Positions 2,652 to 43,129 of a stretch of 64,000 nucleotides of DNA are shown piece after piece. Positions within the stretch are counted from its first letter, which is position 1. The number at the start of each line of letters is the position of its first letter. This DNA comes from Planctomyces sp. (lineage in GTDB: Bacteria; Planctomycetota; Planctomycetia; Planctomycetales; Planctomycetaceae). Under the pieces are notes generated by a model. That model ran no database searches. It saw only the letters and a list, made by a program, of their open reading frames with translations, and was not told the DNA's origin. The translations under genes were made by a program, and so were the position numbers. The stretch lies in the NCBI GenBank assembly GCA_019636235.1, contig JAHBXW010000001.1, positions 310,001 through 374,000 of the forward strand, given 5' to 3'.

Positions 2652-4205
2652 CTATTCGGCGTGGGCGGGCGCCAGTCGCGGATCGTCCAGGTCGAGTCCG
2701 TACAGGATCTGGTTGTAATCGTACCAGGGCGTCCGGGGGACGTTCTCGGTGAACAGGTTCGTGTACGTCCCCTCGAAGTGGATCCGCCGTCCGTCGTCCT
2801 GATCGAAGAAGTCGTGGTGCGTCACGTTGTAGAACGAGTACTTGTCGTGCGTGACGATCTTCACCCCCCGGGCAAAAGGCCCCTCCGGCCGCCGCGATTC
2901 CGCGTACCAGACTTCGCCGAGAAACGAAGGCCCTCCGTACGTCTCGTGCGCGATCATGACCCACCGCTGGCGATGTTCGTTCCAGCGGACCGACCCGGCG
3001 TGCAGCTGGACCTCCTTGCCGTCCGCGGCGTCGACCGTTCGGAACGGATTCTCCTCGGCGGACAACAGGCCATCTCGAACCAATGATCGCATCTGCCGCG
3101 CATCGACCGGGGACGTGGCGGCTTTCCAGCCGAAACGCACCCGGCCTGCGTCGTCGCGATCCAGCTCCGGAGGTGGGCCCCGGGACCAGAGCGCGCCCTC
3201 CGGCAGCGGCGTCCAGGACTCCCAGCGGAGCGGATCGGTCGCGGCCTCCCAGCGGGCTGGCACGCGGACCAGCACGTAGGGCGTTGCGAAGGCGATGTAG
3301 TCCTCATTGCCCTCCTTGATCCGCAGCGCCTGGCCCCGCGGCGTCGGCAGCGGCCGCTCGTCGTATTCGAACAGCGGCTCGAAGACGTTCGTCTCGTCGT
3401 TCAGCACGGCCAGCCCTGACGACAGCTCGTCGGCGAGGCTCTTGCGTCTTGAGTAATGAGTCAGAATCCGTTCGCGGCCGTCGGGATCGGTCAGCGAAAA
3501 CGCGCCATGCACCCAGATCAGCACGCCGTTCTCGCGGCGGAACATCGGGCGGCTGAAGCCGTCGACTCCCGTGAAGTATTCGAGATCGATGCCCACGGAA
3601 GGATCGAGTCCGCCCGCACCCGGCAACAGGGAGACCGCGCCTGACGTGTTGAACTGCCCCAGCGGATAGCTGAGTTTGTCGGTATCGCCCCAGAACCAGT
3701 GAATCCGGTCGCCGCGAACGACGCACTGTACCGTGTCCTGACCGGCGACCTGCGCGTTGAGGACCGGCGCGCGAATCGGGACGTCGCGTCCGAGCTTGAC
3801 GCTGTCGCGGTAGATGCCGGCGCCGGTGATCCGGTACAGGCGTTCGGCGATGTTCGTGCGCTGAATCCGGAACGTCTCCACGTTGCCGGGCTCGACTTTT
3901 ACGGCGCGGCCGCGGAACCCTAAGCCGTCCTTCGGGAACTCATAGCCGTGGCTGGAGACCTCGAAAAACACCGTCTGTCCGGCCAGGGCGGGCTCGTCGA
4001 TGGCCGCCAGGCCGTGGCTGTCAGTGATGTGCACCGAATCGGCGGTCGTCTTGAGTTCGACGAGCGGCACGCCGCGGCCGGTCTGGTCGTCGACAACATG
4101 GATGGCAAAGGGCGGGTCCGCTGCGAAAGCGCGTCCCGCGCAGGCCGCGAACATCGCTGCGGCCAGGGTCAGGCGAACTTGCGCGAGGGAACAGCGGCGC
4201 GACAT
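2652..4205 (-). CDS. Secreted beta-propeller-like hypothetical protein
   Basis: The product is 517 residues and begins with a signal peptide (LTLAAAMFAACAGRAFA, probable cleavage before ADPP near residue 29). Residues about 30-110 look like a small beta-sandwich (FAIHVVDDQTGRGVPLVEL..., a carboxypeptidase-regulatory-like fold). The remainder contains repeated short motifs such as IHWFWGDTDKL, RFGWKAATSP and GEVWYAESRRPEGPF, typical of a five-bladed propeller of the GH43/DUF4185 kind in which the WxGD loop faces the centre. It probably acts on or binds extracellular polysaccharide, but no catalytic triad could be assigned with confidence. It converges with the preceding secreted protein with 43 bases between the stops. 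Confidence 0.7.
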   Translation of the reverse strand: MSRRCSLAQVRLTLAAAMFAACAGRAFAADPPFAIHVVDDQTGRGVPLVELKTTADSVHITDSHGLAAIDEPALAGQTVFFEVSSHGYEFPKDGLGFRGRAVKVEPGNVETFRIQRTNIAERLYRITGAGIYRDSVKLGRDVPIRAPVLNAQVAGQDTVQCVVRGDRIHWFWGDTDKLSYPLGQFNTSGAVSLLPGAGGLDPSVGIDLEYFTGVDGFSRPMFRRENGVLIWVHGAFSLTDPDGRERILTHYSRRKSLADELSSGLAVLNDETNVFEPLFEYDERPLPTPRGQALRIKEGNEDYIAFATPYVLVRVPARWEAATDPLRWESWTPLPEGALWSRGPPPELDRDDAGRVRFGWKAATSPVDARQMRSLVRDGLLSAEENPFRTVDAADGKEVQLHAGSVRWNEHRQRWVMIAHETYGGPSFLGEVWYAESRRPEGPFARGVKIVTHDKYSFYNVTHHDFFDQDDGRRIHFEGTYTNLFTENVPRTPWYDYNQILYGLDLDDPRLAPAHAE

Positions 4206-33041: not shown

Positions 33042-33071
33042 TTGACGGCGATTGAAGGGGGGCAGCATAAT
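33042..33071 (+). promoter_or_regulatory. Predicted sigma70-like promoter of the retron RNA
   Basis: TTGACG (33042-33047) and CATAAT (33066-33071) each match five of six consensus bases with an 18-bp spacer. A start seven bases after the -10 falls at 33078, exactly the first base of the 5' inverted repeat of the retron RNA. The coincidence with the independently defined repeat boundary supports the call. Confidence 0.7.
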
Positions 33072-33077
33072 CGCCAC

Positions 33078-33240
33078 GGCAGCCCGAGGATCGCACAAGC
33101 GTTGGTCCTTTCGAGGACGCTGCGGGGCAACCCCGCGGTAGAAGCGTTGACGATCATTCATCCGAGAATTTGTGCTCGGCAATGCGTTGTTTGCCGAGAC
33201 AAATTCGCCACAGGATTCGTTGTGCGATCCCCGGGCCGCC
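33078..33240 (+). ncRNA. Retron msr-msd non-coding RNA
   Basis: This 163-nt stretch has every structural part of a retron RNA. The ends are inverted repeats: 33078-33098 (a1) pairs with 33220-33240 (a2) at 19 of 21 positions, with an unbroken 11-bp core GGATCGCACAA / TTGTGCGATCC. Directly after a1 the sequence AAGC gives a candidate branching guanosine at 33099. Two msr-type hairpins follow: GTCCT-TTCG-AGGAC (33105-33118) and GCGGGG-CAA-CCCCGC (33122-33136). After about 29 unpaired bases comes the msd hairpin 33166-33206: 16 bp with one bulged G (33174) and an 8-base loop, arms GAATTTGT/ACAAATTC and CTCGGCAA/TTGCCGAG. Reverse transcription should begin just before a2 (about 33219) and end upstream of the hairpin, giving msDNA of roughly 65-85 nt. 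The boundaries are predicted, not measured. Confidence 0.9.
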
Positions 33241-33379
33241 TTCGCAGTCTCATTGGCAGGTCATGTGTGACGTGCGGGCCGGCATGACGGTCCGTCGTCC
33301 GTCGATGTCCCGCGGTTCGCCTGCCCAGACGGTTTCCTGACAGCACCGATCAGCCGCGACGCCCGTCCGCCCGCCGACC

Positions 33380-34669
33380 ATGGGACTTTTTGCTTTCCTG
33401 CGTCGAATCCTCTTCGGCGCGCCCGAGGACGCTGCTGACGACGGCGGCTCCACGGCTCCCCGCCAGTCGCCCCCCCCGCAGTCTCCGGCAACGGCCAGGC
33501 GCCGTCGGACTCCGCTTCCGCCCCTCCGCTACGGTTCGAAACATCCGCGAACCCCCGCCGCGTTGGAGCAGGTCGCCGAGCGTCCCTATCAGTTCGCAAA
33601 CCTGGGGCCGGCCGGACGATTCCTCGACCTCAGCACCGACGCTGATCTGTCGCGGCTGGAACAGCTGGAGCTGCCGCGGCTGCTCACCCCCGCGGACGTC
33701 GCTCATTGGTTGAACATGCCGCCCGGCCGGCTGGCCTGGCTGTCCGGACGCTTCGAACCCCAGCAGCGCGCCGCCAGCGAAAAGGCCGCCCATTACCACT
33801 ACCGCTGGATCCGCAAGCGATCCGGAGGGATGCGGCTGATCGAGGCTCCCAAGGTCCGGCTGCGCCAGGTGCAGACTCGTATTCTCCGGGAAATTCTCGA
33901 CCATGTCGCGGCGCACGATCACGCGCACGGATTCGTTCGCGACCGTTCGGCGCTGACCAACGCGAAACCGCACGTCGGCAGCTATGTCGTCCTGAAGCTG
34001 GACCTCGAGAACTTCTACGCTTCCGTGCGGTACTCGCGCGTGGTGGCGATCTTCCGCGCGTTGGGGTTTTCGCGCGCCGCCGCGCTGTGGCTGGCCCGGC
34101 TGACGACGTCCGCCGCGCCGGCGTCGCTGAGTTTTCCCGATCGCAGTCCGCTGGGGTTGCTGCCGTACCTGCCGCGGCATCTGCCGCAGGGAGCGCCGAC
34201 GTCTCCGGCGCTGGCGAACCTGTCGGCCTGGTCGCTGGACGTGCGTCTGACGGGACTCGCGAAGAAGTACCACGCAACGTACACGCGGTACGCGGACGAT
34301 CTGACGTTCTCCGGATCGCATCGGTTCGCCGCGGCGCTGTCGGAGTTCATTCCGCTGGCAGAAAAGATCATCCGTTCGGAACGGTTCAAGGTGAACCGGG
34401 CCAAGCGCAAAGTGCTGCGGCGCAGCGGCCGGCAGACCGTCACGGGGGTCGTCACGAACGCCCGCCCGAACATCGCCCGGGAGGACTACGACCGCCTCAA
34501 GGCGATCCTGCACAACTGCGTCCGGCGCGGACCCAGCACGCAGAACCACGACAGTCGCAAGGACTTTCAGGCGCATCTCCGCGGGCGGGTCGCCCACGTC
34601 CGCAGCGTTCACCCCGCGCGCGGCGCGAAGCTCCTCGCGCTGTATCAGCGGATCGACTGGAAGCGCTGA
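33380..34669 (+). CDS. Retron reverse transcriptase
   Basis: The product is 429 residues. Residues 1-100 are a basic, proline-rich leader plus a helical region with no recognised domain; the RT core runs from about 101 (LLTPADVAHWLNMPPGRL) to 360. Core motifs: RWIRKRSGGMRLIEAP (142-157), AHGFVRDRS (182-190), the retron-specific NAxxH as NAKPH (194-198), motif A KLDLENFY with Asp208, LPQGAPTSP (268-276), catalytic YADD (304-307) and the retron VTG motif (354-356), which contacts the msr. The remaining 70 residues are a basic thumb. The protein should bind the RNA encoded 140 bases upstream and make branched msDNA. The long N-terminus and the HGF...TNA pattern recall myxobacterial Mx65/Mx162-type RTs, from memory. 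No ribosome site is obvious before the ATG. It converges with trpA, seven bases apart. Confidence 0.97.
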   Translation: MGLFAFLRRILFGAPEDAADDGGSTAPRQSPPPQSPATARRRRTPLPPLRYGSKHPRTPAALEQVAERPYQFANLGPAGRFLDLSTDADLSRLEQLELPRLLTPADVAHWLNMPPGRLAWLSGRFEPQQRAASEKAAHYHYRWIRKRSGGMRLIEAPKVRLRQVQTRILREILDHVAAHDHAHGFVRDRSALTNAKPHVGSYVVLKLDLENFYASVRYSRVVAIFRALGFSRAAALWLARLTTSAAPASLSFPDRSPLGLLPYLPRHLPQGAPTSPALANLSAWSLDVRLTGLAKKYHATYTRYADDLTFSGSHRFAAALSEFIPLAEKIIRSERFKVNRAKRKVLRRSGRQTVTGVVTNARPNIAREDYDRLKAILHNCVRRGPSTQNHDSRKDFQAHLRGRVAHVRSVHPARGAKLLALYQRIDWKR

Positions 34670-41074: not shown

Positions 41075-43129
41075 TCACTCCAGGGTCTGGTCCATGGTCA
41101 CGCGGAGGCCCCATAGTTCCGCCATTCCCTTCAGCCGCGACACGTGCACGTTGCCGCCGGGCCGGACGCGCAGATTGACCTTTGGCAGCCAGTAGAAGTT
41201 CCCCGCCGGCTTGCCCCAGCTGCGGACCTCGGCTTCGACGAGCATCGCGAAGGCCTCCTGAACCTCATCCTGATCGGCGTCCGCCGACAGTGCGATTTCG
41301 TCATCGCCGACGACGACCCGGTCGCCATGCACGTCCATCGACACGACGCGCTCGAAGCCAATCCGCGCCCCGGGATTCGACGTTCCCCAGCGGCGGGGGG
41401 CCGTCGATTCGGTTCCTGGCAAGGATCGTCGCCGAACGGGGGGCTCGTCGAAGTCAGGAGGCTGGAGAGGCCCGCGCGTTCGCTGACGATTCGCCTGCGC
41501 TTCGGTGGCCGCCTGGGGGCCGAATGTTCGGCGCTGCTGTGGCGGCTGCTGATTGGATTCTCGGCTCTCGGTTCCCTGCGGTGCGGAGGGAGACCGGCGA
41601 ATCTTCAGTGAGGGTTCCCGGCTGACGCGGTCGGAATCGTCGCCGGGGGAAACGTCGACCGCCTGCGACTCCTGGTCGCCGGGGCTGGCGGGGTCGAGCC
41701 GCGCGATGCCGCTGGGAACGCCCGACAGTCGCGATGGCGGCGCAGGTTCGCCGGCGGCTGCGGCGCCTCCCGATTGCGGAGTTTCTGCTTGCGGAGCGTT
41801 CTTCAGTGGTGCGCCGGATTGCGGTCCGAAGTCCTGCGCCGCTGGCGGCTGCCGCCCCGGGCCGAAGCCGCCCGTTCCGCCACGGGGGAGGTCCGGGGAG
41901 CGGCTCGCGCCGCGGTCCTTGGCATCGGCGAAGTGACCGCGGAGGGCTCGGTCGCCGGTGGGCTGATCGCGAAGCTCTTCCACTTCGGGCAAGTGAAACT
42001 CGCCGTCCGGACCGCCGAACTGGAGTTCCCGCGGAATGCCCGTGCTGGTTTTCGGCGTCACGCGGCCCCGATCCGCGAGACAGCGTGCGATGGCCGCCTC
42101 AAGCGCCGCCACCTGTTGCGGATCGGGCTGCGGCCAGACGAACTGAAGGTCGTCCGGAACGAGTTCCACTCCCGATGCGAGCGGGGAATCGCCAAGCAGG
42201 GCGCGGGCGATGTAGTAGGCCTCCGTGCCGCGGGGCCGCACAACGAACAGGATGTATGGCCGCGCCGACTCCTGGACTGCGGCGTTGCTCGACGCCTGCT
42301 GCAGCGCGGCGAGCGCAGCGGTCCCCGCCCGCAGTGGATTGTGAGCGGGCGGAAAACCGGTCAGATGCGCGGGAGTCAGCGAAACGTTCTGCCCGGCGAA
42401 CCGGATCCGGTCTTCGAGGCACTCCAGGACGATCGGATCGAGCCGCGTGCCGGAATTGCCCCGATGCGCAACCAGCGAATACCGTTGCGGGGCGTTCGCC
42501 TGGGCGTCGCGCAGCGATTCGAGCCGTTGTTCGAGTTCCTCGAGCGCCCGCGCGGTTCGCGCGCGTTCGTCGCGAAGGCTGCGATGGGAGCGTTCCAGTT
42601 CCTGTCGCCGTGCGGACTGGCGATCACGATCGCGCTGCAGCTGCTGCTCCTGCCGGGTCAGGGCCGCGGCGCGGCCTTCGAGCGTTTCGAGCTGTTGCCG
42701 GCGCTCGGCGATTGCGGCCTGCAGGCCGTCCACCTCCTGACGCATCGCGTCGACCTGCGTCTGCCAGGTTCGACGCAGTTCCGCCTCCTCGCGCGCAATG
42801 TCTTCGGCGGTTGGCCCGGGAGGTTCATGGAAATCCGGCAATATCGGATCCAGATCGTCCGGATCTTCGATGGGGGCGACGACCGGGGCCGGCTGGGGAG
42901 CCGCGGGAATGGGCAGGGGACGCGGCTGCGTCGTTGGCGGAGCGGGAATGATCGGCGCCGGCGGCAGCGCGGCCATCTGGGACTGCTGCCACTGCTCCAC
43001 AGTGCGTTCCCGGATCTGCCGGGCGGTGACGACAAGCAACAGGATCAGCGCCCCCATCGTGCACATCAGCACGGCGAGGAAGGGGAACAGCGCAACCGGC
43101 GGTCCGGCCGATGCCCGTTTGTGTGCCAC
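41075..43129 (-). CDS. Large TolR/MotB-like single-TM protein (module gene 2)
   Basis: The product is 684 residues from a GTG at 43129 with GAGGA just upstream. One N-terminal helix (PFLAVLMCTMGALILLLVV, about 15-35) is followed by a proline-rich linker and a long coiled coil (about 110-215, for example EVDGLQAAIAERRQQLETLE). A globular part (ARPYILFVVRPRGTEAYYIA) resembles the C-terminal domain of its smaller neighbour. A low-complexity Gly/Pro/Gln/Arg-rich region (about 400-590) comes next, then a final folded domain (RVVSMDVHGDRVVVGDDEIA, NVHVSRLKGMAELWGLRV). Unlike TolR, there is no clear acidic residue in the helix. It lies between the TolQ-like gene (46 bases) and the smaller TolR-like gene (3 bases). 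Confidence 0.78.
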   Translation of the reverse strand: MAHKRASAGPPVALFPFLAVLMCTMGALILLLVVTARQIRERTVEQWQQSQMAALPPAPIIPAPPTTQPRPLPIPAAPQPAPVVAPIEDPDDLDPILPDFHEPPGPTAEDIAREEAELRRTWQTQVDAMRQEVDGLQAAIAERRQQLETLEGRAAALTRQEQQLQRDRDRQSARRQELERSHRSLRDERARTARALEELEQRLESLRDAQANAPQRYSLVAHRGNSGTRLDPIVLECLEDRIRFAGQNVSLTPAHLTGFPPAHNPLRAGTAALAALQQASSNAAVQESARPYILFVVRPRGTEAYYIARALLGDSPLASGVELVPDDLQFVWPQPDPQQVAALEAAIARCLADRGRVTPKTSTGIPRELQFGGPDGEFHLPEVEELRDQPTGDRALRGHFADAKDRGASRSPDLPRGGTGGFGPGRQPPAAQDFGPQSGAPLKNAPQAETPQSGGAAAAGEPAPPSRLSGVPSGIARLDPASPGDQESQAVDVSPGDDSDRVSREPSLKIRRSPSAPQGTESRESNQQPPQQRRTFGPQAATEAQANRQRTRGPLQPPDFDEPPVRRRSLPGTESTAPRRWGTSNPGARIGFERVVSMDVHGDRVVVGDDEIALSADADQDEVQEAFAMLVEAEVRSWGKPAGNFYWLPKVNLRVRPGGNVHVSRLKGMAELWGLRVTMDQTLE

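Follow-up and report, generated by a model that had tools for sequence, protein, structure and literature searches.

A mostly vertically inherited planctomycete retron without a linked effector gene and with a putative membrane anchor on its reverse transcriptase

The 64,000-nucleotide stretch of Planctomyces sp. DNA analyzed here (the window) carries a retron of two parts, a structured msr-msd RNA and a reverse transcriptase (RT) of the retron family, which are inherited together under purifying selection and have no effector gene linked to them. The RT begins with a short helix that is predicted to bind the membrane, and both its msDNA product and its biological role are inferred. With modest confidence, we read the whole as a mostly vertically inherited, membrane-tethered retron that has no effector at its locus and likely acts as a resident sentinel. 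The preliminary description of this DNA had proposed a complete, functional retron in a probable planctomycete. Completeness (RT plus RNA) in a planctomycete is confirmed, with msDNA synthesis inferred, and function is supported by purifying selection, although msDNA has not been observed. Our search of the open-access literature turned up neither a paper about retrons of planctomycetes nor one about a retron RT tethered to the membrane.

A retron RT and its structured RNA

The window RT, the sole match in its 5.6-Mb genome (E ≤ 0.001), contains in one frame the motifs NAKPH (residue 194), YADD (304), and VTG (354), as the preliminary description had read them; among validated retron RTs, NAXXH and VTG are each present in 14 of 16, according to the accessible portion of PMC6868368. 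Pfam RVT_1 matches at 2.8e-19, and among the PADLOC models RT_other ranks first (1.7e-130), followed by RT_outgroup (1.3e-123; labeled retron) and RT_XIII (4.5e-105). No NCBIfam model reaches its cutoff, and the group II, Drt2, and Drt3a models score far under theirs (50 bits against a cutoff of 300, 33.7 against 390, and 24 against 200, respectively). Retron RTs are also the best matches of a PDB sequence search, with the Ec86 RT on top (2e-30). The AlphaFold2 model has a confident RT fold (mean pLDDT, 89.3), and when it was compared with the PDB by Foldseek, the first 18 rows were all retron RTs, ahead of any group II intron RT. Neither Pfam nor the AlphaFold2 model reveals an additional domain. 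The earlier placement among retron RTs is supported by profiles, PDB search, and Foldseek, whereas the tree check is only partial: our RT trees contain retron-group RTs alone, without group II or DGR references.

In alignment A4, which comprises 49 sequences (the window plus 48 of 80 loci), YADD is invariant. The RTs of the window's type, which we call clade A, hold NAxxH in 30/30, YADD in 30/30, and VTG in 27/30, while NAxxH occurs in only 2 of the 19 non-clade-A RTs. By profile and alignment scores, the window RT belongs to the "outgroup/other" retron RTs, an untyped set from Proteobacteria, myxobacteria, Acidobacteria, and other groups that supplies its best profiles. The 19 non-clade-A RTs of A4 are 40 to 46% identical to it, and several RT_outgroup/RT_other loci carry a related RNA upstream (E-values down to 2.5e-13 with covariance model R1, described below). 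Type XIII RTs are also similar, RT_XIII being the third-best model; however, the window RT scores 350.4 bits on RT_XIII versus 434.5 on RT_other, 84 lower, and falls outside the type XIII group in a tree rooted on that group. Ec86 (Eco1) is the closest solved structure both by sequence (E-value as above) and by fold (1.5e-21; TM 0.71 on target). It was, however, solved with an effector, whereas the window retron has no linked effector and its RT has an N-terminal extension.

Upstream of the RT gene lies the msr-msd RNA (Table 1). Covariance model R1 matches positions 33067 to 33241 at 134.5 bits (the window sequence is also in the R1 seed), and the segment 33042 to 33240 folds at −97.5 kcal/mol (z = −5.4; 0 of 200 shuffles equally good), with a z of −3.45 for the longer segment 33000 to 33379. 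Rfam 15, at gathering thresholds, has no match in the window. The 163-nt region bounded by inverted repeats is as first described, including the pairing of its ends, and a repeat search returned 33073 to 33098 and 33220 to 33245 as 85% complementary. Some details needed correction. Of the two short stems and 16-bp bulged hairpin claimed, the 5-bp stem and the hairpin stand, but the second stem has 9 bp and is not short; the AAGC branch-point candidate is present at the left repeat, but at 33097 to 33100 it overlaps the last two bases of that repeat rather than following it. The RNA is predicted to start at about 33078, an inferred position.

Table 1. Features of the retron in the window and stand-alone retron RNAs of genus g4
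Feature	Coordinates	Strand	Basis
ncRNA promoter −35 element, TTGACG	33042..33047	+	Similar sites upstream of homologous RNAs
ncRNA promoter −10 element, CATAAT (spacer, 18 nt)	33066..33071	+	Similar sites upstream of homologous RNAs
msr-msd ncRNA, 163 nt	33078..33240	+	Covariance model R1, fold
a1, left inverted repeat	33078..33098	+	19/21 positions pair with 33220-33240 (manual count)
Candidate 2'-5' branch guanosine in AAGC	33099..33099	+	AAG of this motif invariant; role assigned by analogy with known retrons
msr stem-loop 1, 5 bp, varies among relatives	33105..33118	+	Fold
msr stem-loop 2, 9 bp, conserved CUGYGGGGNNACCCCRCGG hairpin	33119..33139	+	Alignment, fold
msd hairpin, 16 bp, one bulge; inferred msDNA template	33166..33206	+	Fold, covariation
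Conserved single strand with CACAGGA, just inside a2	33207..33219	+	CACAGGA columns invariant
a2, right inverted repeat	33220..33240	+	Repeat search, covariation
Retron reverse transcriptase, 429 aa	33380..34669	+	ORF, profiles, structure model
N-terminal amphipathic helix, codons 3-12	33386..33415	+	AlphaFold2 helix 3-12; hydrophobic moment of relatives
Presumably disordered linker, codons 13-61	33416..33562	+	Low model confidence
Stand-alone retron RNA, genus g4	L111:8612-8791	+	
Stand-alone retron RNA, genus g4	L112:8246-8426	+	
Stand-alone retron RNA, genus g4	L113:8668-8849	−	

RNA structure among relatives

We aligned 31 sequences from upstream of relatives' RTs and obtained 43 consensus pairs, 30 of which change on both sides in at least one sequence. 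Model R1 was built from this alignment, so its seed sequences match by construction. With it, RNAs on the forward strand were detected upstream of the RT at 69 of 76 clade-A loci, 70 in all; these counts exclude weaker reverse-strand matches arising from the palindromic RNA. Across these 70 forward matches (E ≤ 1e-15), compensatory two-sided change is seen in 35 of 43 pairs, 94.8% of alignment cells are paired, and the covariation score is 0.602, whereas shuffled alignments give 0.177 and sliding the structure gives no more than 0.106. Further pair types, by contrast, are no more numerous than in shuffles (101 versus 99.1; 145 of 500 shuffles as high), and the 70-RNA alignment was fitted to the covariance model, which biases it in the model's favor.

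The helices differ in how they are kept. In helix 1 (a1/a2), 16 of 20 pairs are changed on both sides, and helix 2 (msr stem-loop 2) is paired in 99.6% of cells. All 15 modeled pairs of helices 3 and 4, which form the msd stem, change on both sides: this stem is conserved in shape rather than in sequence. Two unpaired elements are invariant in the 31 aligned sequences, the A-A-G beside a1 and the CACAGGA preceding a2, although priming at the guanosine is only inferred. The check suggested at the outset, whether the inverted repeats and msd hairpin persist upstream of relatives' RTs, gave a positive answer, with compensatory change in both, and this comparison of aligned relatives confirms that the msr-msd RNA is real. 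One genome (L029) has two tandem RNA copies with different msd hairpins (2978-3140 and 3297-3459, both on the minus strand) ahead of a single RT.

The claimed promoter ahead of the RNA, TTGACG-18-CATAAT, also holds up: a site scoring at least 9 of 12 lies in the 55 nt upstream of 56 of the 70 RNAs, versus 4.1% of 1,400 shuffles. By eye, two forms recur, TTGACG-18-CATAAT and TTGACC-16-TACGAT, and the latter may perhaps contain a lineage-specific −10 form.

Co-occurrence and descent of RT and RNA

Among 120 sampled genomes of the window's family, 92 encode an RT of the wider group (E ≤ 1e-60), and 79, from 42 genera, encode a clade-A RT (as read from identities and coverage). Strong R1 matches occur in 77 genomes, all of which carry a clade-A RT, and a genome-wide search with R1 found no strong match in any of the 41 genomes lacking one. 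A weak match (8e-8) lies at the clade-B RT of one genome (G116). The RTs without an RNA, in G019 and G104, both end at contig ends. At the level of loci, 7 of 76 clade-A RTs have no RNA nearby; four of these are at contig ends, and the other three (L050, L055, and L061) all belong to genus g4.

We considered loss of the RNA in genus g4 and rejected it, since a genome-wide model search found the RNAs at another genomic locus (116, 114, and 112 bits; Table 1). No RT is present within the 9 to 17 kb of sequence around these stand-alone RNAs. Their stem is retained by compensatory change even though the sequences differ among the three species (read by eye), the g4 RT adjoins a ubiquitous membrane-protein gene, and the g4 RTs included in A4 (L160 and L178) retain YADD. 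The most economical reading is that in this genus the RT works on its RNA in trans.

Across the phylum, counting the window's family, the RT occurs in 54 of 294 sampled genomes at E ≤ 1e-50. Family f25 has it in 14 of 16 genomes and family f48 in 4 of 7; with R1, an RNA is detected at 9 of 11 loci from f25 and at 3 of 4 from f48, the fourth f48 locus giving a weak partial match.

We compared RT and rpoB trees for 60 genomes and found 30 of 57 splits in common (permuted mean, 0.14; maximum, 1 in 300 permutations). When only RT splits with support of at least 0.9 are counted, 25 of 32 are present in the rpoB tree, and 6 of the 32 contradict rpoB splits of support ≥0.9. Distances also correlate (Mantel r = 0.575, p = 0.001), each of the 13 genera represented by at least two genomes forms a single clade in the RT tree, and the RT is mostly single copy per genome. 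Because the RT and rpoB trees largely agree and genera are monophyletic in the RT tree, the RT-RNA pair is, as judged from these phylogenies, mostly vertically inherited, with losses and some transfer. In one genome, G029, the RT (L018; G029:C179:40846-42111) groups with genus g16, whereas rpoB places G029 elsewhere; neither of its two sampled congeners (G070 and G091) has an RT match at E ≤ 1e-60, and this copy was probably acquired by horizontal transfer. The RT core is under purifying selection, with dN/dS of 0.03 to 0.13 in 13 close pairs. The retron is nonetheless dispensable, because 41 of 120 genomes lack the RT.

A putative membrane anchor at the RT N terminus

Where related RTs have a folded N-terminal domain, the clade-A RTs, that of the window included, have a helix and linker. 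The window RT's RT_outgroup match covers profile positions 77 to 407 of 407 and thus leaves out the N-terminal domain (profile 1 to 76); the corresponding match starts at position 6 for a Pyxidicoccus RT and at 13 for a clade-B planctomycete RT. The Pyxidicoccus RT (locus L183) is 44% identical to that of the window but has a folded N-terminal region, and its R1 match is weak (E = 0.0067). Clade-A RTs begin with about 12 residues like MGLFDFLRRLFG, followed by a variable, basic, Pro/Ser-rich linker, for which 10-residue blocks 2 to 6 of the AlphaFold2 model have mean pLDDT values of 41 to 53. We take such N-terminal helices to resemble membrane-targeting N termini, e.g., that of FtsY.

The first 12 residues have a mean hydrophobic moment of 0.415, versus 0.291 ± 0.016 when shuffled (highest of 500, 0.335). 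This statistic covers 60 of 76 clade-A proteins, and the start pattern used itself favors hydrophobic residues at positions 3 and 4; the 16 excluded proteins were truncated, of a membrane-spanning type, uncertain in their start, or mismatched to the pattern. Three RTs from genera g23 and g26 (L012, L075, and L076) have a membrane-spanning-like stretch instead of the helix, as judged by eye. In the 13 close pairs, dN of the helix is 0 in nine and at most 0.065 in the other four, and the linker evolves fast (dN, 0.03 to 0.61). Together, a helix on a linker suggests a membrane-tethered retron; membrane binding itself is inferred.

Similar N-terminal starts occur in f25 (MGLFDWLFGKKK), f48 (MGLGFLKRLFGG), and f51. 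In a 175-sequence RT tree rooted on type XIII, f51 and f25 branch first, and clade A plus f48 (support, 0.98) stands opposite clade B plus other phyla (0.99). Given that root, the helix would be either ancestral or have arisen more than once. A short helix of amphipathic appearance (MGLLQRLAEWLFG or a similar sequence) also opens the type XIII-like planctomycete RTs L105 and L106 (clade C) and L102; the type XIII-like label rests on score for L105 (RT_XIII, 1.3e-156), whose start resembles that of the window RT, and on tree position for L106 and L102.

No linked effector

In the portions of PMC6868368, PMC8867640, and PMC12548924 available to us, retrons figure mostly as defense systems whose toxic effector is encoded next to the RT. 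In the window, the RT is flanked by a beta-CASP metallo-beta-lactamase gene (nuclease-like) and trpA, and we found no defense island, ten further genes of the window belonging to ordinary Pfam families or to none. Nor is an effector linked in 64 relatives, where the recurrent neighbors are ubiquitous genes. One candidate was a gene for a membrane protein of about 240 aa that immediately follows the RT gene at 28 of 64 long-flank clade-A loci (17 of 36 genera). We rejected it as an effector: 100 of 120 genomes have it, including many that lack the RT, and the genome of the window carries it 320 kb away from the RT. This shared neighbor suggests an ancestral locus. The family (G000:C1:22307-22930) has no Pfam match at E ≤ 0.1. 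A divergent M50 peptidase is encoded near the RT in 18 loci from 12 genera.

Elsewhere in the window, 41075-43129 on the minus strand encodes a 684-aa coiled-coil-like protein with a subthreshold PspA/IM30 match (30.6 of 33.9 bits), and the adjoining gene encodes a 375-aa protein without a Pfam match.

The locus does not fit the definition of a tripartite retron defense system in which the effector is linked to the RT, although an effector encoded elsewhere could still exist. The accessible part of one review (PMC8867640) mentions retrons that lack a clear effector, and an unclassified retron with no obvious effector is described in the part of PMC12548924 that we could consult.

Discussion

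We interpret the element as an RT-RNA pair passed on mostly by descent within the family, as opposed to a mobile defense cassette that carries a linked toxin. We propose that the promoter at 33042-33071 would drive the 163-nt RNA, whose msr stems the RT would bind, priming on the 2'-OH of guanosine 33099 by analogy with known retrons (PMC6868368, in its accessible portion). Reverse transcription through the msd hairpin, beginning at the foot of a2, would then yield branched msDNA, the complement of the single strand at 33207-33219 forming its inferred 5' end. From this anatomy and known retrons, the product is expected to measure about 55 to 71 nt, which replaces the 65 to 85 nt of the preliminary description and remains a prediction for a molecule not yet observed. 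The RT core would sit on a disordered linker, hung from an amphipathic helix that is most likely bound to the inner face of the membrane, and RT and msDNA may act as a membrane-tethered complex. Its most likely role would be that of a resident sentinel sensing phage or nucleic-acid stress through msDNA, with an output at the membrane delivered by the RT's own N-terminal helix or by an unlinked partner. Only tentatively do we advance a further idea: the element could be a two-part, core-genome retron with no separate effector, retained mostly through descent in planctomycete lineages. Its output would be the membrane helix, a built-in effector that the msDNA complex either keeps away from the membrane or renders harmless, and its RNA could be supplied in trans.

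The main competing explanations concern what the msDNA complex does. Characterized retrons generally consist of an RT, an RNA, and a toxic effector (PMC12548924, as far as its available text goes), and in genus g4 the RT and its RNA themselves lie at separate loci; a conventional tripartite antiphage retron could accordingly have its toxic effector encoded elsewhere, with the helix aiding effector binding or being incidental. We doubt this, in that the sole recurrent neighbor of the RT is a membrane-protein family found with or without it, but keep it as a possibility. The msDNA could also have a cellular role, such as holding a DNA-binding protein or repair, rather than one in defense, as perhaps in myxobacteria. 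Mostly vertical inheritance, ordinary neighbors, strong purifying selection, and a conserved promoter would all fit such a housekeeping element, and the vertically inherited myxobacterial retrons (Mx162, Sa163) are the closest precedent for the window retron: they are near-universal in their bacterial group, with msDNA in 27 of 28 strains, according to what could be consulted of PMC6868368. However, the RT is lost from or absent in 41 of 120 genomes of the family, and no such retron role was found demonstrated in the literature examined; we hold this account to be less likely though viable. The sentinel and housekeeping roles are the best-supported options and cannot be separated from sequence alone.

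Two further explanations question whether the element works as a retron at all. The missing linked effector and the patchy distribution at the genus level might point to a selfish or decaying retroelement without function, yet the low dN/dS of the RT core, the compensatory changes in the RNA, the invariant YADD in 49 RTs, and a mostly single-copy, mostly vertical mode of inheritance make this very improbable. Likewise, since msDNA was not observed and structured RNAs are used by many bacterial RTs, the enzyme could belong to a different RT class, whether DRT-like, DGR, or group II derived, and its structured RNA might never be converted to branched msDNA. We give this very little credence: a1/a2, AAGC, the msr hairpins, and the msd hairpin occur in retron order, the group II, Drt2, and Drt3a models remain far below their cutoffs, and retron RTs come first in Foldseek.

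Our preferred reading, the membrane-tethered sentinel, describes a retron that is held mostly by vertical descent in one planctomycete family and is near-universal in a second (f25), without a linked effector, and in which a putative membrane anchor replaces the usual N-terminal domain of a retron RT. Such retrons can now be searched for with the 70-sequence RNA alignment and the covariance model, and genus g4 provides a natural case of RT and RNA retained together without linkage. These planctomycetes bring two questions within reach of experiment: the function of retrons that have no effector, and the ability of msDNA to work at a membrane.
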